NCBI GenBank assembly: GCA_026770585.1
Contig: MU647088.1
Coordinates: 34,013 to 54,157 of the forward strand
DNA length: 20,145 bases
Origin: Baffinella frigidus
Lineage: Eukaryota; Cryptophyceae; Cryptomonadales; Baffinellaceae
Direction: 5' to 3'
Shown: positions 3,213 to 19,940 of the stretch, piece by piece
How positions within the stretch are numbered: the stretch's first letter is position 1
How the letters are laid out: the number at the start of each line of letters is the position of its first letter
Translations under genes and position numbers: made by a program
Notes under the pieces: model-generated
What the model was told of the DNA's origin: nothing
The model's input: the letters and a program-made list of their open reading frames with translations, nothing else
The model's database searches: none

Positions 3213-3321
3213 CGCAGCCACCTCTAGGCCTGTCAACTTTAGGGATGGCGCCCGAAAGTTGACCGCCCTAGAGCAGCCACCTCTAGGGCTGTCAGCTTTA
3301 GGGATGACGCAGCCACTTCTA
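3213..3321 (+). repeat. Direct repeat used as family A target
   Basis: GCAGCCACCTCTAGG-CTGTCA-CTTTAGGGATG occurs at 3214 and 3273, and starts a third time at 3309, where family A copy A2 interrupts it. Confidence 0.75.
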
Positions 3322-3438
3322 CAGGGGTACCTCGCTCATAAGAAAGCGCCCTCCCCTAGGACCCTACCGTAGGGCTATGCCTAGGGCCCTATGGTGGTCC
3401 TGAGGGGGGGGGGGGTTCTTATGAGCGAGGTACCCCTG
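3322..3438. mobile_element. Family A foldback MITE, copy A2 (with empty-site comparison)
   Basis: It carries the same ends as A1 and is flanked by TA. It sits in the third copy of a local direct repeat. Copy two reads CACCTC-TA-GGGCTGTC and this one reads CACTTC-TA-[element]-TA-GGGCTCTC. The uninterrupted repeat therefore serves as an empty site and shows a TA target duplication. Confidence 0.88.
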
Positions 3439-3499
3439 TAGGGCTCTCGACTGCACGTGTGAGGACTGACCGCCTCGGGCGGAGCACACAAGACTTTTA

Positions 3500-3599: not shown

Positions 3600-3689
3600 T
3601 GCAGACTTTAGGGTTTAGAGCAAGACACCGCCTCCCCCTGGGACCCTCCAGTGCCAGACCGACCAAAACTCCTTGAGGTATGTACAGTA

Positions 3690-3807
3690 CAGGGGTACCT
3701 CGCTCATAAGAAACCGCCCCCCCCTAGGACCCTACAGTAGGCCTATGCCTAGGGCCCTATGGTGGTCCTATGTGGGGGGGCGGTTTCTTATGAGCGAGGT
3801 ACCCCTG
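3690..3807. mobile_element. Family A foldback MITE, copy A3
   Basis: Complete inverted ends and TA flanks. TGTACAG also occurs on both sides, which may be chance or a longer duplication. The core lies in the orientation opposite to A1. Confidence 0.85.
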
Positions 3808-3872
3808 TATGTACAGTAGAGCCGATCCGTAAGGCTCTGTGGTGGTCCTAGGAGGCTGCATCGGTGTGAGTA

Positions 3873-5392: not shown

Positions 5393-5483
5393 ATTAGCTC
5401 GCCAGTGTAGAGGCTCATGTAGAGGGGATAAAGGGTGGCTCTCTTGGAACAGTATCCCGTGGTTGCGGGAGGCTGCGCATCCT

Positions 5484-5590
5484 TTAGGCGGACACCGGAA
5501 CTTGTTCTGAAGAAAGGCCATGCTTCCTTTCGAATCACATCAAGCCCCCCCTGCACAGAGGATCGCGGCAGAAACCGGCTCAAAGGTTTC
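5484..5590 (+). repeat. Dispersed repeat F, copy 1
   Basis: GCGGACACCGGAACTTGTTC through GAGGATCGCGGCAGAAACCG is shared with 6818-6915 with scattered substitutions. No gene recognised. Confidence 0.6.
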
Positions 5591-7438: not shown

Positions 7439-7559
7439 CAGGGGTACCTCGCTCATAAGAAAGCGCCTCCTCGTAGCACCCTACAGTAGGTCCATGCCTA
7501 GGGTCCTGTGGTGGTCCTAAGGGGGGGGGGGGCGCTTTCTTATGAGCGAGGTACCCCTG
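7439..7559. mobile_element. Family A foldback MITE, copy A9
   Basis: The left end has TA and the right end reads CCCCTG-CA instead of TA. A truncated relative in inverted core orientation follows 11 bp later, suggesting a local duplication or inversion. Confidence 0.82.
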
Positions 7560-7679: not shown

Positions 7680-7710
7680 CACGCTTAGAGTCCTGGGGCT
7701 ATCTTCCTAG

Positions 7711-7778
7711 AAGGAGAGGGTGCGGCGCGCTTCACGGCGGCGAGGCTCGCGCTCCACGACGCTCTGGGACATGTCAAA
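7711..7778 (+). CDS. Candidate exon (GEGAARFTAARLALHDALGHVK)
   Basis: Acceptor-like TATCTTCCTAG precedes it and a consensus donor AAA|GTAAGT follows. The 68-nt interval reads GEGAARFTAARL, then ALHDALGHVK, in one frame. The acceptor side (about 48 bp) is copied at 8024-8071 and the exon interior at 7866-7912. On the minus strand the same copy offers a good acceptor (CTCTCCTTCTAG), so orientation is not certain. No family recognised. Confidence 0.35.
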
Positions 7779-7806
7779 GTAAGTGCAGCAGCAGGGTTTC
7801 GCAAGG

Positions 7807-7862: not shown

Positions 7863-7920
7863 CGGATGCGGGCGCGCTTCGCGGCGGCGAGGCTCGCGCT
7901 CCACGACGCTGTCCGCATCC

Positions 7921-8026: not shown

Positions 8027-8093
8027 CGCTCTGAGTCCTGGGGCTATCTTCCTAGAAGGAGAGGGTGCGGAAAGTCAGCATCCTCCACAAGAA

Positions 8094-8527: not shown

Positions 8528-8621
8528 GATGTGCCCCAGCTCCTTGCACAACTCCAACGCCGTGTCCTGCGCGACGCCCTCCTCGGCCTCCTGGGGGGTG
8601 ATGGTGTGCTTTCCGCTCGTG
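8525..8621 (-). CDS. Candidate exon (TSGKHTITPQEAEEG...ELGHIK)
   Basis: After acceptor-like GGAGCAG the minus strand reads TSGKHTITPQEAEEGVAQDT and then ALELCKELGHIK in 32 codons of balanced composition. The 3' border runs into a dispersed repeat (GCAAAAATGCTTT) and lacks a clear GT donor. A partial copy of the exon start (TSGKHTITP, then diverging) lies at 8340-8380. Family B element 8641-8739 sits just upstream. Function not recognised. Confidence 0.4.
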
Positions 8622-9603: not shown

Positions 9604-9891
9604 CTGCACGGGGAGTCAACAGGTGGGTGTGTTACTTACGAGCGGGAAAGAGAGAAGTGGTGTGTACCCCCCGAGGAGAGGCAGAGAGAGAGAGAGAGAG
9701 AGAGAGAGCCACGGGGGTGGTGGATCCGTGCAGCACGCCGGGCGCCACGCTCGTGTGAGATGGGCTGAAATTAAGGGTTTCTTGTGAGCGAGGTACCCAT
9801 GTAGGGCGACGCGTGTCCTTACTGTACAGGGGTACGTCGCTCATAAGAAACTGTACAGGGGTGGTCGGACCTGGACGGAGGGGTGTAGGGT

Positions 9892-9951
<60 letters not shown>

Positions 9952-10643
9952 GGGTGGTCGAACCTGGACGGAAGGAAGCTCGATCAGGGCCATCTTGCGG
10001 TCGGCCGTGGGGGTAGGCTCGCGGTTGTTGGTGATGAACTTGAACTTCGACACCTGTACCATGAATGAAAACGCGCGTGTTACAATCGGGGGAACACTTC
10101 ATCTGGCCACGCCACGTGATACCTCAGAATGGAAAGCCCTCCAAAGCGAACCAGATCGGTCGTGTGGCGAAACCCGGTTTATCTCCGGTAAACCCTGGCA
10201 AAAGTCCGAGAGACAAACCAAACCGGGACACACCAGCTCACTTCACAAGGCTGGCGGGTGGGTTGGATGCAGATATACCATACCATCCCCCATCACTAGC
10301 CGGATCAGGTTCAGGTCCAGGGTTCATGGTTCAGAGTTCATGGTTCAGGGTTCAGAGTTTAGGGTTCAAGTTTCAGTTTTCAGTTTTCAGGGATCAGGTT
10401 TAGGGGTCAGGGTTCAGGGTTCAGGGATCAGGTTCAGGGGTCAGGGTTCAGGGTTCAGGGATCAGGTTTAGGGGTCAGGGTTGAGGGTTCAGGGTGTCGG
10501 GGGTAGGTACCGGGCCGAAGGCGTCCTCGAAAAGGGCCTTGAGGCCCTCCTCCTCCATGTGGCTCGGCACGTTGCTCACGTGCAGCAGTCGCGAGGGCTC
10601 GATTGAGGGCACCGAACGCGCTGCCGCACCCCGGTATCTGTTG

Positions 10644-10674
<31 letters not shown>

Positions 10675-11203
10675 GGGTGAGGGTTGAGGGTTGAGGGGTG
10701 AGGGGTGAGGGTTGAGGGGTGAGGGTTGAGGGTGGAGGGGTGAGGGTTGAGGGGTGAGGTGTGAGGGTTGAGGGTTGAGGGTTGAGGGTCGAAACCCTGA
10801 ACACGTGTACCGCCCGCGTCCGTCACCACACAGCGGCCTACACAGGGACTTCGTGAATACCCCACACGTGGATAATCCACAGGACCCTGCGGTAGGCCAT
10901 CCGTAGGGACATGGGGTTGTTCCTACGGATATCCCAACCGAATCTCGGCGGCTCAGTCACCGAAAATCCCGTCGTAGCCCGCTGTGTGGCCACGTGAAAT
11001 CCCTGCAGGTTTTTTTGTGCCTGGAAATCGCTCTTTTCGGTTCGCGCACCCATTCGGCTGCCGTAGGGTTTAGAGTTTGGGGTGTAGGGTTTAGGGTTTA
11101 GGGTTGAGCACCTGTGGAGAACGGAGGAGGTGTAATCTCGTCTGGGGTTTTCTGTGGACCCAGCTCAGTACATGCTATCAATAAAGCAACTCTCCCTCTC
11201 TCC

Positions 11204-11238
<35 letters not shown>

Positions 11239-14200
11239 GCTCTCTCTCTCTCTAGACTGGGTTGGTAACCTGTGGAGAACGGAGGAGGTGTAATCTCCGA
11301 ACAGCTTCGAGGACTCGTCCTCCAAATCGCTCCGGTTCGCCTGCGCGGGGAACTCCGATTTACAATCGAATATGCGCTTTACACTCGAATATGCGGGGAA
11401 CGCCGCTTTACATTCGAATATGCGGGGAACGCCGCTTTACACTCAGGCGCCACCGCGCCCGGACACGAACTGGTCCACGTCTTTTCAAATTCGTATTTTC
11501 ATTTCGGATAAAGAAAGAGCCCAAATTTGGTTTCTTTTGGGGTGGTTTCGATTAATTTTTGCCAGATTACACCATCTCCGAACAGCTTCGAGGACTCGTC
11601 CTCCAAATCGCTCCGGTTCGCCTGCGCGGGGAACTCCGATTTACAATCGAATATGCGCTTTACACTCGAATATGCGGGGAACGCCGCTTTACATTCGAAT
11701 ATGCGGGGAACGCCGCTTTACACTCAGGCGCCACCGCGCCCGGACACGAACTGGTCCACGTCTTTTCAAATTCGTATTTTCATTTCGGATAAAGAAAGAG
11801 CCCAAATTTGGTTTCTTTTGGGGTGGTTTCGATTAATTTTTGCCAGATTACACCATCTCCGAACAGCTTCGAGGACTCGTCCTCCAAATCGCTCCGGTTC
11901 GCCTGCGCGAGGAACTCCGATTTACAATTGAATATGCGGGGAACTCCGATTTACAATTGAATATGCGGGGAACTCCGCTTACACCCAGACGCTAACTTTA
12001 CACGCACGCGCTTTACACTCAGGTGCGTTGCTTTACACGCATGCGCTTTACAGAGGCGCTGTACGTTACACTCATGCGCGTTACAGTCAGGTGCTTTACT
12101 TCACACTCTCATAGGGCAACGTCCTGAAAACCGGGTAGTTAAGCCTACGGTATTGCCTACGGCCATTGCCTACGGTAGGCCGTAGGCCTCCTAGGACCTA
12201 ATGTTTCATAGGACCCCCCCAAGGCCCAAACAAAGCAACTTTCTTTATCTCAAAGTGTGTGAGGGGGGGCTCCCACAGTCAACATCAAACGACGAGAAAA
12301 TCAAACGACGAGGTGGTGGTGGTGGTGTGTGTGTGGGGGGGGGTGAGTACAGTCAACATCAAACGAAGAGAAACGGCGAGAGGAAAAAACGGACCTGGAC
12401 GGTCAAGTGCTTGGAGGTGGAGACACCGAGTCCCGCCCAGCTGCACTCCCTCAACAGAGCAACTCTCGCTCTCGCTCTCTCTGCCGCTGTCTCTCTCCCA
12501 CTGTCTCTCTCCCTCTGTCTCTCCCTCTCTCGCTCCCTCCCTCTCAAAGCGGGAGCGGGCGCTCACCTGGACGGTCAAGTGCTTCGACGTCGACACAACG
12601 AGGTTGCGTCCCCAGAGGGGGCACCCCGAGAGGATCGCCCGCGCGTTCTCCGCGTGCTCCGCGCACTCGAACTGCCAAGGGTCAGGGGTGAGGGGTGAGG
12701 GGGGGTTCAGGGCTTCACGGTCAAGGGTTCCAGGGCTGAAGCCACCACCCCTGAAACCCGGGTAGAGTGAGGGGTGGGGGGGGTGGGGGGTTAGGGGTGA
12801 GGGGTGTGAGGGGTGAGGGGTGAGGGGTGAGGGGGTTAGGGTTAAGGATTCAGCGTGCAGAGGGGGAAAGGATGCAGTGTGCAGAGATGGTCAGGATTCA
12901 GTGTGCAGAGGGGGGTCAGGATGCAGTGTTCAGTGGTCAGTGCTCAGGGGTAAGGGTTACTCGTACTGGACCAGGGGAGGGGTGAGGGGGTCAGAATTCA
13001 GGGTTTCACGGTCAAGGGTTCCAGGGCTGCGCGCACTCAAACTGCAGTAGGTGTTCCAGGTGTCAGTGTTCAGTGTTCAGTGTGCAGGGGTTAGGGTTCA
13101 GTGTTCAGTGTTCAGTGTACAGTGTTCAGTGTTCAGTGTTCAGGGATTAGGGTTACTCGAACTGTCAATGGTGTCAGGGGTGATGGGTTCAGGGTTCAGG
13201 GGTTCCGGGGCTCCGTGCACTCGAATTGGAGCAGGGGAGGGAGTGAGGGATTTAGGTTTTAGGGTTTAGGGTTTAGGGTTTGGGGGAGAGGGGTGAGGGG
13301 TTAGGGGTTAGGGTTCAATGGTTAGGGTTCAATGGTTAGGGTTCAAGGGTTGGGTTCAAGGGTGAGGGTTTAAGGGTTGCGGTTTCGGGTACACCCCACA
13401 ATGTTCCTGTTCCCCCCACCACGCCAGATTGGATGTGTGGGTTATTTTTTTTAAATCGTATGAGGATACGGGTGTGAACTTTTGAAAACCTTCACTTGAG
13501 GAGGAATTGACTTTTGGCGACCCCTTCCAAGAATCTGGCGTGGCAGACACCACCATAGTCCTGCGCCCCATTGCTGGTGGACGGTGGGCCCTTGCACAAC
13601 CGGGTTTGAAAGATTATAGCCCTTGTCTCTGAGGCGGGCCCGTTTCTTAAGGCTCACAGCCTTTTGTATCACTCAACTCAAGGCTCAAGGGCCTCATTTA
13701 GGACCTTTATCGAGAGTAATGAAGAAGAAGAAGAAGTTTGAAAGGACCTGGATGAGCGCAGAGTCGCGCTTGTTGAACAGGATCTTGATCCGCGAGAGTT
13801 TGAGACACCATTCTAGGAACACGCAAGGCAGTCACGACCGACCGTCTGGCTTCGGCGTCCGCGTGACCGGTCACGTGGGCGTTCACGAGCCTGCCGGCGG
13901 GGCTGTTCCACGGGTTAGGGTTTCGGATTTGAAAGGACCTGGATGAGCGCAGAGTCGCGCTTGTTGAACAGGATCTTGATCCGCGAGATCGTCCCCTGGT
14001 TTGGCGGTTACGGTTTAGGGTTTAGGGTTCAGGGTTTAGTGTTTAGGGTTTAGGGTTTAGGGTTTAGTGTTTAGGGTTTAGGGTGTAAGGTTTAGGCTTC
14101 AGGCCCGAAACCCGAAACCCTAAATCCTAAACCCTAACCCCTAAACAGGCCCGAAACCCTGAGCTTGTTGAAAAGGATCTTGATGCGCGAGATCGTCCCC

Positions 14201-17200
14201 TATTTTGCGGTTTCGAAACCAGTTTTATAAAAGGGTTTAGGCCCGAAACCCGAACCCCGGAAACCTAAAACCTGAACCCCGAAACCCTTGATCCTCACGG
14301 AGCCCCGCTCACAAGCGAAGCTGATGTCAAATTCGAGGGCGCTGACGTCAAATTCGAGGGTGCTGACGTCAAATTCAGGTCCTTAGACGTCAAATTCGCG
14401 GCTTCTGGCGTCAAATTCGAGGCTGCAGACGTCAAATTCTGATAAGCCAGTCAGGACCAGAATCTGGCCTTGGCTTCCAGGTGAAAGTCCTTGAAACCAA
14501 TCAAGTTCTTCGCTTCTCGCTCGGCAGCCACTCGAGGCTGGAAGAGGGGGTGTTTAAAATGTGGGGTTGTTGAATTTAGTGCCAGTCACGGGCAGGCTTG
14601 GTCACGTTGCTTCCATACAGGCGGGAGGGACGTGACCAAACGCGATATTTGTATGAAAATTACTACACAGCGGTCCACTTGTAAAAGACTTGTAACGTTG
14701 AAACTTTTAAAATAGTCAAATTTCTAGCCTCGTGTGGAGCGGCCTCGCCGTACCGCACCGGTTCAGGGTTTATGGTGCTTCGAGACTTTACATTCTCTTC
14801 GAGGGGTTAGGGTTCAGGGTCCAGGGTTCGGGGTTCAGGGTTCAGGGTTCAGGGTTCAGGCCACACAGCGGACTTCGAAGGGATTTTGAATAACCCCTAA
14901 GCGATAAGACCTGCGACCCCACGGTAGGCAACCCGTAGGGACAGAGGGGAGTTCCCACGGATAAGGTAACGGAAACTCGGGCACCGAGTGCCCGAAAATC
15001 CCTTCGTAGCCCGCTGTGTTGTGTACCGCGGTCGAGAAGAGGTTGAACAGCGCCGCGCAGTGGGAGCGGGCTCTCTCTCTCTCCCTCTCTCTCTCCCTCC
15101 CTCCCTCCCTCCCTCCCTCTCTCTCTCTCTCATCCGACCCCACTCCCAAGGAATACCAACACGTCCGCCCCCAACGCCGTGCAGCAACATATTGCGAGGG
15201 GCGGCGCCGCGTGGGGCTGCGGGGAACTCCCTTTCTCTTCCCCTCTCTCTCTCCCTCCCTCCCTCTCTCCCTCCCTCTCTCCCTCCCTCTCTCCCTCCCT
15301 CCCTCTCTCCCTCCCTCTCTCTCTCCCCCCCTCCCTCCCCCTTGGGGCCAGTCGCCAGGGGGGTACCGCGGTCGAGAAGAGGTTGAACAGCGCCGCGCAG
15401 TTAGAGCGCTCCGGGTCCAGGTTGTTCACCAGCACCACCGGGGAGCGCCCCGGCATCATCCCCCCGCCCCCCATCATCCCGCCCGCCTGCATCTGCATGC
15501 CCATCATCCCCGGGTCGACGTAGCCCGGCATGCCCGCAGCGCCCTGGTAGCCCCCCGGAATGCCAGCCGCGGAGCGCGCCTGCCCGGGCGAGCCGACCAT
15601 GCCCCCCCCCCGCCCCATCGTTTGCGGGAGGTACCTGCAGGGTTTGGGGTTTGGGGTTTGGGGTTTGGGGTTTGGGGTTTGGGGTTTAGAGTTTGGGGTT
15701 TAGGGTTTAGGGTTGAGGGTGCAGCCCCGCGTGGAACCGTTTCAGCAATGGCCATGTAGCGATGTCTCAGTCGATTGGGGTGAGGCGTTTTGGTGAGCCC
15801 GGGCTGGTTCCCGCCCCAAAGTTGACGGATGTGTACCGCATGTCAACTTGAGAATAGTCGGCCAACCCGAGTGAGGCAGAACTAGGGCATCCTCGAGGTC
15901 GAGAGGCCCCCGCCACTTAGCAGCCACCGCGGTCTTCACGGATGCAGTCCATCTAAACGATGTGTACTGGAATCTTATCCATCGCTATGGATTCCAACCG
16001 GAATTCCCCCCGAGAATCCGGGGGGAAATATCTTCGGTCGCTGCTGAGTGGATGGACGACTCTCGACTGAACCGAGCAGGGTGAGTACCGGAGCGGTAAC
16101 TGGACCGGGGAGGCTTTGCACCGGAAGAGAGATAGGCTTGACAATGTTTCACTAAACATGGTAAAGCCTATTTTCGTCGTAATCCCTTTTATCATATCTC
16201 TTCCAGGAAAACCCTGTGGACAGGCAAAAGCCGTACACGGGACATCCTTCACGAGGACAGGAGGCGGGGGGGTAGAATCAGAGCAACTTTACAGACTCGG
16301 CCTAATCCGGGGACATGTTTAATTTAAAAGAAAATGGATCTCTATTTGTTCTTAGGAGTTAGACGAAGGTCAATTAGGGCCCTAAGTAAATTTAATTAGG
16401 GCCAGAATCCGTTTTGAGAGGCCATTTTCTTTTAAATTAAACATGTTCCCGGATGAGGCCGGGGCTGGGCTGCGCTGGGCTCTCGGGGTTTCGGGCTTCG
16501 GGTTTCGGGTTCCGGGTTCCGGGTTCCGGGTTCCGGGTTTCGGGTTCGGATTTCGAGTTTCGGGCTTCGGGTTTCGGGTTTCGGGTCTAGGTGTAGGGCC
16601 GATGCGCCCCCCCCCCCACTGTTGGACGTAGGCCCCCTTTTCGGGTTTCGGGTTTCGGGTCTAAGTTCATGCAAAAAGCCAACGCCAGTGGACCACTTAG
16701 ATCGGACGCGACTGGGTACATTTTTTTTAACGGAAAACGATTTAGGACTTTAAAAGTCAAAATTTGCTTTTAGAATCGTTTTAGAGCTGGTAAGTCCCTC
16801 TCCAGCGAGTGACTCAAGTGGTCCGCTGGCGTTAGCTTGTGGCATTAAGGTGTAGGGCGGGCGCCCCCCCCCCCCTGTTGGGCGTAGGCCCCCTTTTCGG
16901 GTTCCGGGTTTCTGGTCTAGGCCACACAGCGGACGTCGAAGGGATTTCGAATAACCCCTAAGCGATAAGACCCAGGACCCTACGGTAGGCAACCCGCAGG
17001 GACATAACGAAGGTCCTACGGATAAGGTAGCGGAAAGGTGGCCCGATCTGGGCCGAAAATCCCTTCGTAGCCCGCTGTGTGGGTTGGCGCGTAGCACGGG
17101 TGCAGGTGGGTCTACGGTTCAGAGGGTTTCGGGTTTCGGGTCTAGGGTCTAGAGTTTAGGGTCCAGGGTCTAGGGCTGTGTGGGTGTAGGGCGGGCGGGC

Positions 17201-19497
17201 ACCCCCCCTGTTGGGCGTAGGCCGCCTGCTCCCAGCCAGCCCCCCCCCCAGGGGCGACGCCCGGCAGCAGCGCTGCGCCCATCTGCGAACATGGGGCGGA
17301 GTGTTAGCTGCACACACGGAGGAAGAGCCGGACCCCCCCCCAGGGGCGACCCCTGTCAGCAGCGCTGATGGGGCCATCTGGGAACAGGGGAAGGCGCGGA
17401 GTGTTAGAGCGCTTGCCGATTTTAGGGAGAAACATCTTCAGAATTTGTACCAGAATCGTTTAGATGGACCGTTTACATGTCACGTCCTGGTACAAAATTC
17501 TCGATTTCTGAAAAAGTTTCTTCTTGAAATCGGCCAAGTTTTCCCGCAAGCGCTCTAGCTGCACACACGGAGGAAGGAAGTTGGCGGAAAACAAGGACAG
17601 GTTATGACAAAAAGACAGGTTATGAAGAACTGTTCAGCTGAATGCTGTGTTAGGCATGGGCTGTATATGCCAAGATAGCAACACCCACCCTAACATGTCA
17701 CACATGAAAGCCCAACGTAGCATAAAAAGTGCAACTGCATCCGTGATCTCCCGGGATGAGGTTAGGGGTTTGGGGGGAGAAAGAGGACTTCCCAAACACC
17801 TCCCGGTATGTTGAGCCCTACAAGTACGAAACGGGCCGTTTCAAACGGCTCCAACTCCAAGCCAAATCTGAGATATAATCTATACCTCAAGTGGCGAGTA
17901 GGCCCATACGCCCTACTGTAGGCCCCTAGGACCTGCCTAGGAACTCTTGGCCGTCAAATTTGACGGCCTCGCCACCCAAGGGATAAGGTGACGGGACTCG
18001 ATTCGGGGTTTGGGGGAGGAGGAAGGACCTGACGATGGACGTCGAGCCCTCGCAGAAAGCTCAAATCACTCACGTCCTTCTATGTTCCTGGTACAAATTG
18101 CGCCACGGGCGTCGGATTCCGACGTCCTCGGCCTAACCCGATTCAGGTTTGTGATCACGTCCTTCTATTTTCCTGGTACAAATTGGGGCGGGGGCGTCGG
18201 ATTCCGACGTCCACCGATTGAGGCGTGTGATCTCATCCCCGCAAGCATTTAAATCAAATGCTCGAAAGGCATACTTTTGGCGTCAGATTCTGCCTGAAGT
18301 GGCCAAATTGGCAACTTCTGGCAACTTCTGACGCCAAAAGTATGCATTTCGAGCATTTAATTTGCATGCCTGTGGGGATGAGATCAACCTGTGCGGGCTG
18401 GTGGAGGATCGCCTGGGTTCAGGGTTCATGGTTCATGGTTCATGGTTCATGGTTCAGGGTTCAGGGTTTAGGGTTTCGGGTTTCGGGTTTCGGGTTTCGG
18501 GTTTCGGGTTTACGGTTTACGGTTTACGGTGTAGAGTTCAGGGTTTAGGGTTTAGGGTTTAGGGGTTGTTCTCGCCTGGGTTTAGGGTTTAGAGTTCAGG
18601 GTTCAGGGTTTAGGGTTCAGGATTTATTCTCGCCTGGGTGGGGTTGGCCGCGGGGAGCCCCGGGTTGGTGTAGTCGTAGGTGCGTTCGTTGTTGAGCTTC
18701 ACCGTCACGTCCGAGAGGTTCGAGTACTGAATGTGCAGGCAGTTGCACGCTGCGGGAGGGGGAGGAGGGGGGGGTAAGAGGTAGGAAGGTAGATCTAAGG
18801 CTGTCGGGAACCGGGACCGTTACGTCAGAGTGGTTCGAGTGCTGGATGTGCAGGCAGTTGCACGCTGCGGAGGAGGGGGAGGAGGGGGGGGTAAGAGGTA
18901 GGAAGGTAGATCTAAGCCTTGCGGGGACCGGGTATTCCGATAGTGAGGGGAGGCGGGGAGGCGGGGTTAGGGGTTAGGGGGTGTACATGTGTAGATGGTA
19001 TGGTCCTGCAAGGCTGGAGTGCACCAAACTAGCAATAGCCCAAGAACGTGCCCGCGCGTTCTTGCGATGTGTGCTAGTGCTGGTTTGGTGGACTCCAGCC
19101 TTGCAGGGGGTGAACACGGCGCGGGGGGGGGGTAAATATGTAGATGTTCTGGTCAAGGCTGTCGTTCACCAAACGAGCGATAGTGCGGGGATGCGGGGAG
19201 GCGGGGTTAGGGGGCGTACATGTGTAGATGTTCTGGTCCTGGAGGCGCACCGGGATGGGGAATTGAAGAGGGCGGTAAGTCCTCTTAACTCCTCTTACCG
19301 CCCTCTTAAATTCCCTATCGAACTAGCGATAGTGCGGGGAGGCGGGGATAGGGGGCGTACATGTGTAGATGTTCTGGTCCTGCACGGCTGACGATCACCA
19401 AACGAGCGATAGTTAGGGGGCGAACACGGCGGGGGGGCGTACATGTGTAGATGTTCTGGTCCTGGAGGCGCACCAGCGCCGCCGCCGCATCCACCGC
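9511..19497 (-). CDS. Polypyrimidine-tract-binding protein (PTB/hnRNP I-like), 3' part, 8 exons, 5' end outside window
   Basis: This is the 3' part of a PTB-family splicing regulator, a nuclear RNA-binding protein with four RRMs that binds CU-rich pre-mRNA. Exons join in the order 19497-19443, 18749-18634, 15634-15367, 13995-13939, 12671-12567, 10637-10511, 10053-9964, 9603-9511 (911 nt). They give the end of RRM2 (QDQNIYT, SCNCLHIQYSNLSDVTVKLN), a Gly/Met-rich linker, RRM3 (VVLVNNLDPE, SRIKILFNKRDSALIQ, STSKHLTVQ) and RRM4 (LLHVSNVP, DRKMALIELPSV, LRVSFSTSNIA-stop). Spacing and motifs follow PTB closely; 'KILFNK..SALIQ', 'SKH.TVQ' and 'DRKMALI' are family hallmarks. Introns are 360-2999 nt and repeat-filled. 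The start codon and RRM1 are not in the window. Two junctions (exon 2/3 and 5/6) are one base out of frame with GC/GT donors and would be restored by GA donors. I am confident of the family; the exact splice sites at those two junctions are uncertain. Confidence 0.92.
9774..9852. mobile_element. Two family A arm fragments in the last PTB intron
   Basis: A right arm (TTTCTTGTGAGCGAGGTACC, 9777-9802) is followed by a left arm (CAGGGGTACGTCGCTCATAA) from about 9834. They are the only family A pieces seen inside the PTB gene. Confidence 0.6.
9892..9953 (+). repeat. TTGAGGG array in last PTB intron
   Basis: About eight tandem GGGTTGA units, a variant of the TTTAGGG telomere repeat. The sense transcript of the gene would carry CCCTCAA. 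Confidence 0.9.
9964..10053 (-). CDS. PTB exon 7 in window (RRM4 core)
   Basis: This 90-nt exon, phase 0 at both ends, reads VSKFKFITNN and then REPTPTADRKMALIELPSVQ. It matches PTB RRM4 'VKGFKFFQKDRKMALIQMGSVEEA' with a short insertion before DRKMALI. The acceptor is GGTACAG and the donor is GTTCGA. A short echo of the exon end and donor (CCGTCCAG|GTCCGACC) lies at 9861-9880. Confidence 0.9.
10310..10497 (+). repeat. TTCAGGG array in PTB intron
   Basis: Irregular GGTTCAGGGTTCAG units with TTCATGG and ATCAGG variants. Confidence 0.88.
10511..10637 (-). CDS. PTB exon 6 in window (inter-RRM linker and RRM4 start)
   Basis: This 127-nt exon follows acceptor CCAACAG. In the RRM frame it reads YRGAAARSVPSIEPS and then the RRM4 RNP2 strand LLHVSNVP, followed by SHMEEEGLKALFEDAFGP. 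This matches PTB 'TLHLSNIPPSVSEEDLKVLF'. The donor is GTACCT. The exon begins with one extra base before the TAC codon, so the upstream exon must deliver two bases. Confidence 0.88.
10641..10790 (+). repeat. TTGAGGG/TGAGGGG array in PTB intron
   Basis: About 20 GGGTTGA or GGGGTGA units run up to the acceptor of exon 6, so the acceptor's pyrimidine tract in RNA is made of CCCUCAA repeats. Confidence 0.9.
10827..10988. mobile_element. Family C foldback in PTB intron
   Basis: Ends CACACAGCGGCC / GTAGCCCGCTGTGTG, with the core GGACCCTGCGGTAGGCCATC and a TCGGCGGCTCAGTCACCGA stem. About 160 bp with no coding capacity. Confidence 0.75.
11107..11298 (+). repeat. Direct repeat flanking a CT tract
   Basis: ACCTGTGGAGAACGGAGGAG-GTGTAATCTC occurs at about 11109 and 11269, enclosing a (CT)n tract at 11190-11253. 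On the minus strand both read CTCCACAG|GT, an acceptor-like border. Confidence 0.8.
11294..11930 (+). repeat. 281-bp tandem repeat, about 2.3 copies
   Basis: TCTCCGAACAGCTTCGAGG recurs at 11294, 11575 and 11856 with period 281. By eye the first two copies are identical, implying a recent duplication. Each unit contains a short internal repeat (AATATGCGGGGAACGCCGC). 281 is not a multiple of three, and no conserved protein is evident. It lies in the intron between exons 5 and 6. Confidence 0.92.
11931..12110 (+). repeat. Degenerate GCTTTACAC minisatellite
   Basis: GCTTTACACTCAGGCGC-like units continue from the 281-bp repeat with many variants. No gene seen. Confidence 0.7.
12567..12671 (-). 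CDS. PTB exon 5 in window (end of RRM3)
   Basis: This 105-nt exon (35 codons) reads FECAEHAENARAILSG, then GRNLVVSTSKHLTVQ. It corresponds to PTB 'MADGNQAQLAMSHLNG...ITLSKHQNVQ' with exactly the same spacing in the first block. The acceptor is TTGGCAG and the apparent donor is CAG|GTGAGC. Using that donor, the following exon is one base out of frame. A GA donor two bases later, or an unseen small exon, would fix this. Confidence 0.9.
12677..13390 (+). repeat. TGAGGGG/TTCAGTG/TTTAGGG arrays in PTB intron 4
   Basis: Successive blocks of GGGGTGA, GTGTTCA and GGGTTTA variants fill this intron. Short echoes of the exon 5 acceptor (ACTCGAACTG type) occur at 12959, 13031, 13155 and 13215. TCACGGTCAAGGGTTCCAGG is repeated at about 12715 and 13005. 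Confidence 0.85.
13829..13882 (+). repeat. Dispersed repeat with GTGACCGGTCAC, copy 2 (PTB intron)
   Basis: Same segment as 7807-7862. It lies between the two identical copies of the exon 4 end. Confidence 0.6.
13939..13995 (-). CDS. PTB exon 4 in window (RRM3 core)
   Basis: This 57-nt exon has phase 0 at both ends and reads GTISRIKILFNKRDSALIQ, the RRM3 segment most typical of PTB (plant and animal forms have VKIL[FY]NKK[ED][NS]AL[VI]Q). The acceptor is AACCAG and the donor is GTCCTT. The exon end, donor and intron start are repeated identically over 61 bp at 13737-13797. A variant of the acceptor and exon start lies at 14163-14206. Confidence 0.9.
14015..14290 (+). repeat. TTTAGGG array switching to CCCGAAACCC
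   Basis: TTTAGGG units (14022-14095) turn into CCCGAAACCC/CCTAAACCC units (14103-14160, 14240-14288), giving a potential large inverted repeat. A copy of the exon 4 start lies between them. Confidence 0.85.
14320..14446 (+). repeat. 21-bp tandem repeat (GACGTCAAATTCGAGGG)
   Basis: Six units carry an invariant GTCAAATTC. Because 21 is a multiple of three, one + frame reads ADVKFEG heptads six times before a TGA. No start or splice context was found, so a minisatellite is more likely than a gene. Confidence 0.8.
14526..14742. repeat. Dispersed repeat J, copy 2, in PTB intron
   Basis: Related to 6367-6635 at both ends, with the middle partly inverted (TATGAAAATTACTACACAG). No gene is seen in it. 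Confidence 0.5.
14862..15019. mobile_element. Family C foldback in PTB intron
   Basis: Ends CACACAGCGGACTTCGAAGG / CCTTCGTAGCCCGCTGTGT, plus the hairpin GGGCACCGAGTGCCC. It directly abuts the echo of exon 3 at 15023. Confidence 0.8.
15069..15132. repeat. CT microsatellite in PTB intron 3
   Basis: CTCTCT and CCCTCCCT units. A second such tract lies at 15236-15340, between the exon 3 border and its echo. Confidence 0.88.
15367..15634 (-). CDS. PTB exon 3 in window (Gly/Met-rich linker and RRM3 start)
   Basis: This 268-nt exon follows acceptor CTGCAG. It encodes a low-complexity Gly/Met/Pro/Gln linker (for example GMMGMQMQAGGMMGGGGMMP) and then RRM3 beta1/alpha1, with RNP2 VVLVNNL followed by DPERSNCAALFNLFSTA. 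The donor is GTACCC. It contains a 10-G homopolymer (minus strand), so a length error there could also explain the one-base phase conflict with the preceding exon. The last 36 coding bases plus GTA are repeated exactly at 15023-15061. Confidence 0.88.
15640..15720 (+). repeat. TTTGGGG/TTTAGGG array at an acceptor
   Basis: About eleven GGGGTTT/GGGTTTA units immediately upstream (in gene sense) of the exon 3 acceptor. Confidence 0.9.
15913..16051. mobile_element. Family K foldback, copy 2, in PTB intron
   Basis: Ends CCACTTAGCAGCCACC / GTCGCTGCTGAGTGG, plus the hairpin TCCCCCCGAGAATCCGGGGGGA. It is in the opposite orientation to the copy at 7207-7350, and the hairpin bases have changed in a compensated way. 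Confidence 0.65.
16306..16453. mobile_element. Long-arm foldback in PTB intron
   Basis: Arms of about 32 bp (TCCGGGGACATGTTTAATTT ... / AAATTAAACATGTTCCCGGA). The AT-rich loop contains GGTCAATTAGGGCCCTAA. No TA duplication is evident. Confidence 0.78.
16485..16665 (+). repeat. TTTCGGG/TTCCGGG array in PTB intron 2
   Basis: Tandem GGGTTTC and GGGTTCC units, with the C-rich unit GTTGG[AG]CGTAGGCCCCC at the end, which recurs at 16873 and 17211. Confidence 0.88.
16678..16836. mobile_element. Foldback between copies of a GGGCGTAGGCCCCC repeat
   Basis: Arms GCCAACGCCAGTGGACCACTT / AAGTGGTCCGCTGGCGTTAGC with an AT-rich loop. It is flanked by direct repeats of the GTTGG[AG]CGTAGGCCCCCTTT unit, at 16606-16663 and 16855-16920. 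Confidence 0.75.
16923..17081. mobile_element. Family C foldback in PTB intron
   Basis: Ends CACACAGCGGACGTCGAAGG / CCTTCGTAGCCCGCTGTGTG, and a core nearly identical to 14862-15019 (AATAACCCCTAAGCGATAAG). The inner hairpin is GGCCCGATCTGGGCC. Confidence 0.8.
17251..17578 (+). repeat. Tandem duplication with one interrupted copy
   Basis: AGGGGCGAC...CAGCAGCGCTG...GCGGAGTGTTAGCTGCACAC occurs at 17251-17323 and again at 17341-17578. The second copy is split by the foldback at 17407-17555. Confidence 0.85.
17407..17555. mobile_element. Foldback inserted in a tandem repeat unit; TA duplication
   Basis: Ends GAGCGCTTGCCGATTT / AATCGGCC...GCAAGCGCTC. It splits one copy of a local tandem repeat. 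The neighbouring uninterrupted copy (17294-17323) reads GCGGAGTGT-TA-GCTGCACAC, whereas here TA stands on both sides of the element. This directly shows a 149-bp insertion with TA duplication. Confidence 0.9.
17579..17880. other. Unique-looking intronic DNA
   Basis: No repeat family or exon signal is recognised. It lies inside the 3-kb PTB intron 2. Confidence 0.4.
17883..17983. mobile_element. Family B foldback MITE, copy B7, in a PTB intron
   Basis: Ends TACCTCAAGTGGCGAGTAGG / CTCGCCACCCAAGGGA with TA flanks and the stem GGCCGTCAAATTTGACGGCC. It is the only B copy found in the PTB half of the window. Confidence 0.82.
18070..18212 (+). repeat. ~85-bp tandem duplication
   Basis: CACGTCCTTCTAT.TTCCTGG-TACAAATTG and GGGCGTCGGATTCCGACGTC occur twice in tandem. 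They contain the palindrome GTCGGATTCCGAC. The TGGTACAAA motif also occurs in the foldback loop at 17491. Confidence 0.75.
18229..18385. mobile_element. Long-arm foldback in PTB intron
   Basis: Arms of about 60 bp (GATCTCATCCCC...GCATACTTTTGGCGTCAGA and complement). The loop carries GGCAACTTCT twice. Confidence 0.82.
18413..18625 (+). repeat. TTCATGG/TTTCGGG/TTTACGG/TTTAGGG array in PTB intron 2
   Basis: Ordered blocks of heptamer variants follow one another. Two echoes of the exon 2 donor (CCCAG|GCGA on minus) are embedded at about 18410 and 18568. Confidence 0.9.
18634..18749 (-). CDS. PTB exon 2 in window (end of RRM2 and start of linker)
   Basis: This 116-nt exon completes the split Ser codon (T|CG) and reads SCNCLHIQYSNLSDVTVKLN, then NERTYDYTNPGLPAANPTQ. 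It corresponds to PTB '[24 protein letters not shown]'. The acceptor is CCCGCAG. The 3' border is CCCAG followed by GCGAGA, so the donor is either GC or, two bases on, GA. Only the latter keeps the next exon in frame. A tandem copy of the acceptor and exon start lies at 18811-18918. Confidence 0.88.
18690..18918 (-). repeat. 115-bp tandem duplication across the exon 2 acceptor
   Basis: The start of exon 2, its acceptor and about 45 bp of intron recur 115 bp upstream in gene sense (18811-18918). The copy would read SCNCLHIQHSNHSDVTV: three synonymous and two Tyr/Leu-to-His changes. It could be a pseudo-exon or an alternative acceptor. Confidence 0.85.
19007..19107. mobile_element. Foldback within the exon-edge repeat array
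   Basis: Arms CTGCAAGGCTGGAGT / ACTCCAGCCTTGCAG extend to CACCAAAC/GTTTGGTG. Neighbouring array units contain GGCTG..CACCAAACGAG without the second arm, so the palindrome may have arisen from, or into, one array unit. Confidence 0.7.
19258..19316. mobile_element. Small foldback within the exon-edge repeat array
   Basis: Arms AATTGAAGAGGGCGGTAAG / CTCTTACCGCCCTCTTAAATT with a tiny loop. It interrupts one unit of the 18950-19500 array. Confidence 0.65.
19443..19497 (-). CDS. PTB exon 1 in window (RRM2 C-terminal part)
   Basis: This 55-nt exon reads AVDAAAALVRLQDQNIYT plus one base. It matches the RRM2 stretch of PTB that ends in 'DGQNIYN'. The acceptor is GTGCAG before 19497 and the donor is GTACGC after 19443 (phase 1). 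The upstream intron holds a second, degraded copy of acceptor and exon start near 19764-19795 and a fuller exon copy at about 19653-19700. Which copy is spliced was judged from the presence of both borders and an intact frame. Confidence 0.82.
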
Positions 19498-19500
19498 CTG

Positions 19501-19940
19501 CACGCGACACCGAGGGAAGACCACGTTACGCCATCGCCCGCCATCGATGGGAGTTTCAGCGCCCACACGACACGACCGAACAAACACCCGATCCATCCGC
19601 CCCCTCGCGATCCCAGCACGGTCACGGTTTGGGCGAGTTGGTCGCGTCCGTGGTGTAGATGTTCTGGTCCTGGGGGCGCACGTGCGCCGCCGCCGCGTCT
19701 AACAGGCAAGCACCGGTTACTCGCCCAGAGTAACTTTCACTACCTTGGGGGCCATGCTATCGTCCACTGCCTGCAGACGACGAGGGAAGAAAACGTTACC
19801 CTGGGCGAACGCAAGCACAGATTACTGCTGGAGAACGCACTCTTGACCCCCCCCCCGGGGGGGGGCATGCCGTGTTTTGACCAGAGAGAACTACAGCGGG
19901 AAGCTCAAGTTGAGGTGGGGCGTCGAGCGCCAACTGGGAC
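19501..19940. other. Upstream PTB intron with decayed exon echoes
   Basis: It contains the minus-strand copy QDQNIYT (19653-19700) and a second copy of the exon 1 acceptor (TTTTCTTCCCTCGTCGTC-TGCAG|GCAGTGGAC, about 19764-19795). A C10/G10 palindrome lies at 19848-19866. The preceding RRM2 exon was not found before the window end. Confidence 0.5.

Follow-up and report, generated by a model that had tools for sequence, protein, structure and literature searches.

The PTB gene of the window

The window, by which we mean the whole stretch of 20,145 nucleotides of DNA from the Arctic cryptophyte alga Baffinella frigidus analysed here, carries on its minus strand the 3′ part of a gene for polypyrimidine-tract-binding protein (PTB). 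Ten exons can be joined in frame into 353 residues and a stop codon. The joined protein matched the RRM_5 and RRM_1 domains, and the peptide of e1 and e2 matched RRM2 of human PTBP1 (3zzy) with an E value of 1.4e-9. Identity with a transcript-derived protein, P0001 (source mmetsp), extends over residues 137–353 and spans six junctions from e3 to e8, and the junctions e1-e2-eL-e3 are based on frame, homology and a codon model. When the codon model was trained without PTB, all ten exons were recovered. The exons listed in an earlier note on this DNA were confirmed; two had been overlooked there, at 17282–17203 (eL) and 11340–11270 (e5b).

PTB exons
19443–19497, minus: e1 (exon 1 of the earlier note); in-frame model, PTBP1 RRM2 match of the e1+e2 peptide
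18634–18749, minus: e2, with a GC donor; in-frame model, PTBP1 RRM2 match of the e1+e2 peptide
17203–17282, minus: eL, linker before RRM3; frame and phase, codon model trained without PTB, no transcript cover
15367–15634, minus: e3; in-frame model, exon end covered by P0001
13939–13995, minus: e4; P0001, 100%
12567–12671, minus: e5; P0001, 100%
11270–11340, minus: e5b; P0001, 100%
10511–10637, minus: e6; P0001; no echo in the exon-by-exon comparison
9964–10053, minus: e7; P0001
9511–9603, minus: e8, with the stop codon; P0001

The e2 donor at 18634 reads GC (GCGAGA), and GC is kept in both of the short e2 donor echoes. In the related proteins P0008 and P0009 the frame is continuous over the e5|e5b, e5b|e6 and e6|e7 borders (window 10511–12671), and P0008 has about 44 additional residues at e7|e8, where the PTB intron here is 360 bp. 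Judging from these sequences, the PTB introns between e5 and e8 seem to be absent or shorter in a relative, unless they were spliced out by the predictor. No relative of P0009 was confirmed in a viral contig collection.

Echoes of exon borders in the PTB introns

The exon-border echoes that had been noticed in the PTB introns are real, and self-comparison recovered the copies listed in the earlier note. When each exon was compared with the whole window at E<0.01, 17 copies of PTB exons were found, all on the same strand, in the flank of their own exon and at most 565 bp off; none of the 17 was inverted and none lay outside its own exon's flanks. The upstream copies contain exon starts and the downstream copies contain exon ends.

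PTB exon echoes
19653–19699, minus: e1 upstream echo, nt 7–53 of 55 (nearly the whole exon), 91%, E 1.6e-12
19763–19799, minus: e1 upstream echo, acceptor and first 8 nt, 80%, E 0.008
19215–19251, minus: e1 downstream echo, end and donor, 37 bp exact
19321–19382, minus: e1 downstream echo, end and intron start, 81% over 64 bp
19105–19154, minus: e1 downstream echo, exon end, 86%
18977–19008, minus: e1 downstream echo, exon end, 91%
18816–18932, minus: e2 upstream echo, acceptor and exon start, unit of a 117-bp tandem repeat
17326–17407, minus: eL upstream echo, acceptor and start, 79% over 82 bp, tandem unit of about 100 bp
16849–16894, minus: eL downstream echo, exon end, 89%
16608–16638, minus: second eL downstream echo, exon end, from self-comparison
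15023–15061, minus: e3 downstream echo, end and donor, 39 bp exact
14163–14201, minus: e4 upstream echo, acceptor and start, 95%
13737–13797, minus: e4 downstream echo, end and donor, 61 bp exact
12393–12430, minus: e5 downstream echo, end and donor, 87%
11293–11938, minus: e5b 281-bp repeat (2.3 copies), acceptor and start; echoes at 11902–11855 and 11621–11574, the final copy being the exon
11112–11139, minus: e5b downstream echo, exon end, 28 bp exact, then GT
9704–9746, minus: upstream echo of e8, the last exon, nt 12–54 of 93, 81%, E 5e-7; missed in the earlier note

Echoes occur both upstream and downstream of e5b and of eL (those of eL are also delimited as 17367–17326, 16894–16870 and 16638–16614), and as neither exon had been known when the pattern was first described, they provide an independent check of it. 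Some of the other echoes in the earlier description are present but weak. The e2 donor echoes, at 18580 and 18420, cover only about 12–15 bp and lie within or next to telomere-like arrays; the e7 end echo, likewise within or next to arrays, is an 11/14 nt match that falls below the listing of the exon-by-exon comparison; and the best of the four e5 start echoes, which are placed in the same way, is 23 nt at 13225 (E 0.09), the other three lying below that listing. The observation that intron 6 shows no echo agrees with ours, as the exons at 10637–10511 and 10053–9964 had no match in the exon-by-exon comparison.

The upstream echoes of e2 (117 bp), e5b (281 bp) and eL (about 100 bp) are plain tandem units. 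The downstream echoes of e3, e4, e5, e5b and e7 are set off from the exon by GA arrays, by telomere-like arrays or by an element that recurs at 7864–7800. At 11 of the 18 internal PTB exon borders a simple array, in most cases telomere-like (CCCTAAA variants) or GA, begins within 30 bp; the median distance from an array start to an internal border is 23 bp, and to random intron points it is 230 bp.

Signs of neutral decay in the echoes

The earlier note had considered that the echoes might be maintained as decoy splice sites. PTB genes are known for splicing autoregulation, and AG or GT is still present in most of the scored echoes (14/18), as would suit echoes selected as decoys or as alternative exon pieces. 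However, 15.66 ± 1.33 intact dinucleotides are expected from echo identity (this score leaves aside the four weak e5 starts and two e2 echoes lacking an identity estimate), and the splice dinucleotides are thus kept no better than their surroundings. Mismatches between exon and echo, counted by codon position over 18 echoes, number 7, 14 and 20 (of 211, 211 and 207); the numbers are small, and the pattern fits an exon that changes at synonymous sites next to an echo that is free to change at any site. P0001 contains none of the echoes that it spans, and similar echoes are carried by genes unrelated to PTB. The idea of maintained decoys did not hold up, and we regard selection of the echoes for splicing as very improbable.

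Local duplications in a sample of the same genome

Sixteen stretches of the same genome with 119,021 readable bases yielded 74 predicted exons of 72 to 400 nt. These exons are predictions of the codon model, which was trained on known exons and which also called some echoes coding. Four of 78 exons were longer than 400 nt and were excluded, as were predicted exons lying close to N or to the end of a stretch. In one set of 20 stretches, seven were N throughout; a further one, L033, which is mostly N and has no strong exon, was excluded from the exon, family and window counts, and several of the remainder contain some N.

A same-strand copy within 700 bp was found for 22/74 predicted exons versus 44/168 non-coding segments of like length. 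Six of the 22 had copies only within other predicted exons, and discounting these leaves 16/74. Inverted copies were found for none of the 74 exons versus 27/168 non-coding segments. Among random 150-bp segments from ten stretches (L019–L028), 122/400 had same-strand and 45/400 inverted copies, and a wider set of stretches gave 148/520 and 75/520; shuffled segments had no copy in 100 trials of this test. We also collected eighteen domain-matched loci, several of them from the same genes, and examined 17 (L002 was left out): exons had a same-strand copy in 7/17, or in 6 after setting aside L003 with its paralogous RRM domain, and none had an inverted one.

At the level of duplication families, 22 of 91 families in 102,975 free bases touch an exon, versus 21.6 ± 3.9 expected when exon positions are rotated, and 12 cross an exon border versus 13.3 expected; this null includes events that would be fatal to a real exon, so that any excess is understated. 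Local direct duplication, usually with filler between the copies, pervades the genome sample in both coding and non-coding sequence, and the echo pattern recurs at sampled genes unrelated to PTB. At an unrelated predicted exon, for instance (L022, about 5398–5518, C39), four upstream copies of the exon start were found by alignment and five by eye; downstream come an array and then a copy of the exon end, which is the PTB pattern at another gene.

The earlier note had proposed that introns grow by repeated duplication anchored at exon junctions. Its first element stands, as repeated local duplications of exon edges do occur in introns, at unrelated genes as well; the tie to exon junctions is not supported: non-coding segments show local same-strand copies at about the frequency seen for exons, and families reach exons no more often than chance predicts.

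Coding selection and the border layout

Among the non-exonic copies in the genome sample, 28/29 come from the matching half of the exon, that is, from the start half when upstream and from the end half when downstream. We refer to this as the side rule. Capture of nearby DNA in either orientation or from anywhere was rejected as an explanation, since any part of the exon would then be expected and inverted copies of exons were absent.

If a duplicated segment starts in an exon and finishes in an intron, or the reverse, it has to include the border between them. The argument that splice borders would not be struck repeatedly by random duplication is therefore mistaken in part. Duplications that span a border are tolerated since they leave one complete exon, formed by the copy still attached to its remaining part, and exon-internal duplications should be lost; the border layout is thus the outcome expected when selection acts on a blind process. 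We conclude that this layout is imposed by coding selection. In every border event one of the two copies belongs to a functioning exon, and coding selection thereby gives each echo its orientation.

The side rule also bears on the quality of the assembly. Some copies are exact, as would be expected if the echoes were assembly errors. But the identity of the copies ranges from about 74 to 100%, their flanks differ, the contigs examined include some of up to 1.9 Mb, and the side rule would not be expected from a faulty assembly. An assembly error is, in our judgement, very improbable.

Duplication near exon borders

In a stricter count we used 45-bp windows and one side at a time, the tolerated side being the one that leaves the exon intact. 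Tolerated-side border windows had a copy in 20/142 cases versus 352/4800 for non-coding windows (odds ratio 2.07, Fisher p 0.0055), and copies were found for 2/142 wrong-side border windows and 5/142 exon middles. In a repeat count with the same exon figures, the non-coding windows gave 192/2560. The excess is p 0.005 at a stricter score threshold and falls to an odds ratio of 1.56 (p 0.067) at a looser one; among young copies the odds ratio is 2.59 (p 0.0125). A bootstrap over loci placed the border ratio between 0.98 and 3.6, the non-coding rate varying widely between loci. The profile has a peak of 11–14% at the exon edge and lies at 5–10% from 15 bp into the intron outward. For the PTB gene itself, 9/20 border windows had a copy versus 33/300, and a rotation test gave p 0.03–0.05 for border crossing and p 0.22 for how many exons have a copy; the gene is an outlier by selection because it was chosen for its echoes.

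The roughly two-fold excess at border windows, which includes young copies, may be read as targeting: duplication would be aimed at exon–intron borders, for example because breaks are commoner there through transcription, splicing or fragile simple-repeat arrays next to the splice sites. The closeness of arrays to the internal PTB borders and the high count in the PTB border windows speak for this reading. On the other hand, families touch exons at the chance rate, the bootstrap interval reaches below one, the PTB gene was picked for its echoes, and only 2/32 arrays have direct repeats on both sides that exceed the 95% null, the arrays at e5 and e5b falling just short (p 0.06). The last count also led us to reject insertion of telomere arrays with flanking repeats as a general mechanism. 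Part of the excess is explained by the slower decay of pairs in which one copy is exonic, which inflates old border pairs more than young ones. We consider targeting of borders unlikely; we hold it a little less likely again that borders are a genuine duplicate-and-insert hotspot from which introns lengthen at their ends by repeated copying of exon edges, that is, border-directed intron growth. Duplications were to be expected as often away from borders if the anchoring to junctions were wrong, and they are in part: the segment and family counts are about equal, and the border windows differ about two-fold. If duplication is directed at exon borders at all, it is so only to a mild degree.

Geometry of the pairs and a proposed mechanism

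The sample and the window together contain 237 local pairs, of which 17 overlap or lie within 10 bp of each other and 220 are spaced by at least 10 bp. The 34 young pairs (24 from the sample and 10 from the window), which were chosen for a spacer above 0, have copies with a median of 38 bp and spacers with a median of 204 bp. More than 30% of the spacer is a simple array of any kind in 12/34.

The echoes might also have been left by an introner-like or retroposed element whose insertion creates a long target duplication. Such an insert would be flanked by direct repeats, as these spacers are, and foldback elements are common in the window. However, young spacers resemble another sampled locus no more often than controls (11/34 vs 16/54) and show no excess of hairpins over controls, and their direct repeats of 30–60 bp are far longer than the 3–9 bp quoted for introners (Gozashti et al. 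2022, PMC9760276). We regard element scars as improbable.

The reading we prefer, and think probable, is that short direct duplications, each close to its source, abound in the sampled genome, that the layout arises from selection on a near-blind process and that the echoes decay neutrally. Each event would leave two same-strand copies of about 40–60 bp, usually with 50–400 bp of other sequence between them and sometimes as plain tandem units. Its source may be break repair or template switching, in which a staggered or re-copied end would be joined with filler in between. The process would fall anywhere, or nearly so. A duplication wholly within an exon would destroy the exon and be lost; one that spans a border would be tolerated, the copy still joined to the remainder of the exon being intact and spliced. 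The surviving copies of exon DNA would then contain or reach the border, exon starts lying upstream and exon ends downstream, while introns would grow and echoes decay neutrally. The counts above show the abundance of duplications in the sample, their orientation, the side rule and signs of neutral decay; what we propose for the repair pathway, for the sequence of events and for the source of the filler is inference. A tandem duplication whose copies are separated by filler, such as repair of a staggered end could produce, would fit the orientation, the side rule and the flushness of the copies.

Comparison with known systems

Tandem duplication with filler has reportedly been traced to the repair of staggered breaks by Vaughn and Bennetzen in 2014, under the name of patch-mediated repair. 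The echoes share with it new sequence flanked by direct repeats, the geometry and the side rule. They differ in their long spacers (the median given above being that of a selected young set), and the break itself would have to be supposed here.

In the tandem-duplication model of intron gain, the start of the downstream exon is said to come first in the new intron and the end of the upstream exon last. The echoes that follow e3, e4 (where the e5 echo is weak) and e5 have the opposite order, and intron gain by AGGT duplication was rejected for this reason. Intron gain by tandem duplication is described for potato RdRp (PMC4974935); the echoes have in common with it tandem duplication and a connection with introns.

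Short linked duplications with filler, including pieces of exons and splice sites in introns, are described for vertebrates by Pace et al. 2009 (PMC2671141), where coding constraint was absent in both duplicated exons tested. The echoes resemble this proximal duplication in their linked short copies, their filler and the exon and splice-site pieces in introns. According to that paper the copy may be inverted, as for an exon of ACSBG2, unlike the exons sampled here; furthermore, edge pieces on the matching side prevail here, and the density looks far higher, by methods that are not comparable.

Telomere-like arrays between flanking copies, as in several PTB introns, recall the insertion of telomere repeats at breaks, for which Nergadze et al. 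2007 (PMC2246262) give duplications at 6/130 rodent and 4/25 primate insertions; unlike those insertions, only the 12/34 young spacers counted above consist of simple array for more than 30% of their length. Inserted sequence also alters introns in diverse eukaryotes through introners, whose target duplications are short (PMC9760276); the echoes share the alteration of introns by inserted sequence and differ in that no common element was found among the spacers and no short target duplication was seen.

Among the titles and abstracts listed in literature searches, none dealt with echoes of exon edges in Baffinella, and in the main text of the Baffinella genome paper (PMC9756366) the word "intron" does not occur. 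The same paper reports a genome of 534.5 Mbp for Baffinella sp. CCMP2293, which makes it 6.1 times as large as the genome of Guillardia theta. With a same-strand copy beside about one quarter to one third of sampled segments, local duplication is a plausible contributor to the growth of introns and of the genome, if the DNA belongs to the CCMP2293 lineage. Because coding selection orients every echo, a mutational process of intron growth can be counted in one genome.

Other features of the window

A probable exon of another gene at 7688–7781 on the plus strand has parts copied downstream at 7871–7910 (40 bp, 98%) and 8033–8070 (38 bp, exact). A probable exon on the minus strand (ITPQEAEEGVAQDTALELCKELGHIK), for which no family was found, has at its start a 48-bp direct repeat (92%) at 8621–8575 and 8376–8329. 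A tRNA-Arg call at 16459–16537 on the plus strand is probably false, as it overlaps a GGGTTTC array, and Rfam gave no match at gathering scores. Searches of frames from the left half of the window gave no Pfam match in a set of two and, in a set of ten, a best match to ISPD_C that is not credible (E 0.26); one peptide from this half had no match in the PDB.

A foldback element with ends like CAGGGGTACCTCGCTCATAAGAAA occurs at 3688–3809, 3320–3440, 2220–2343, 7440–7559 and elsewhere. The exact pattern of its terminus had no match in viral and genome contig collections, which may omit the genome of the window. Its translation (RGTSLIRN) recurs as a predicted protein in public data, with 143 matches at E<=0.01; among 120 of these 143, the one that bears a species name is P0111 of Baffinella frigidus, which has 70% identity over 48% of the query, a frame derived from the repeat. 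A second element family, beginning CACAGCGGGCTACG, is found at 17091–16899, 15030–14838 and 10989–10826, all within PTB introns, and at about 2398–2520.
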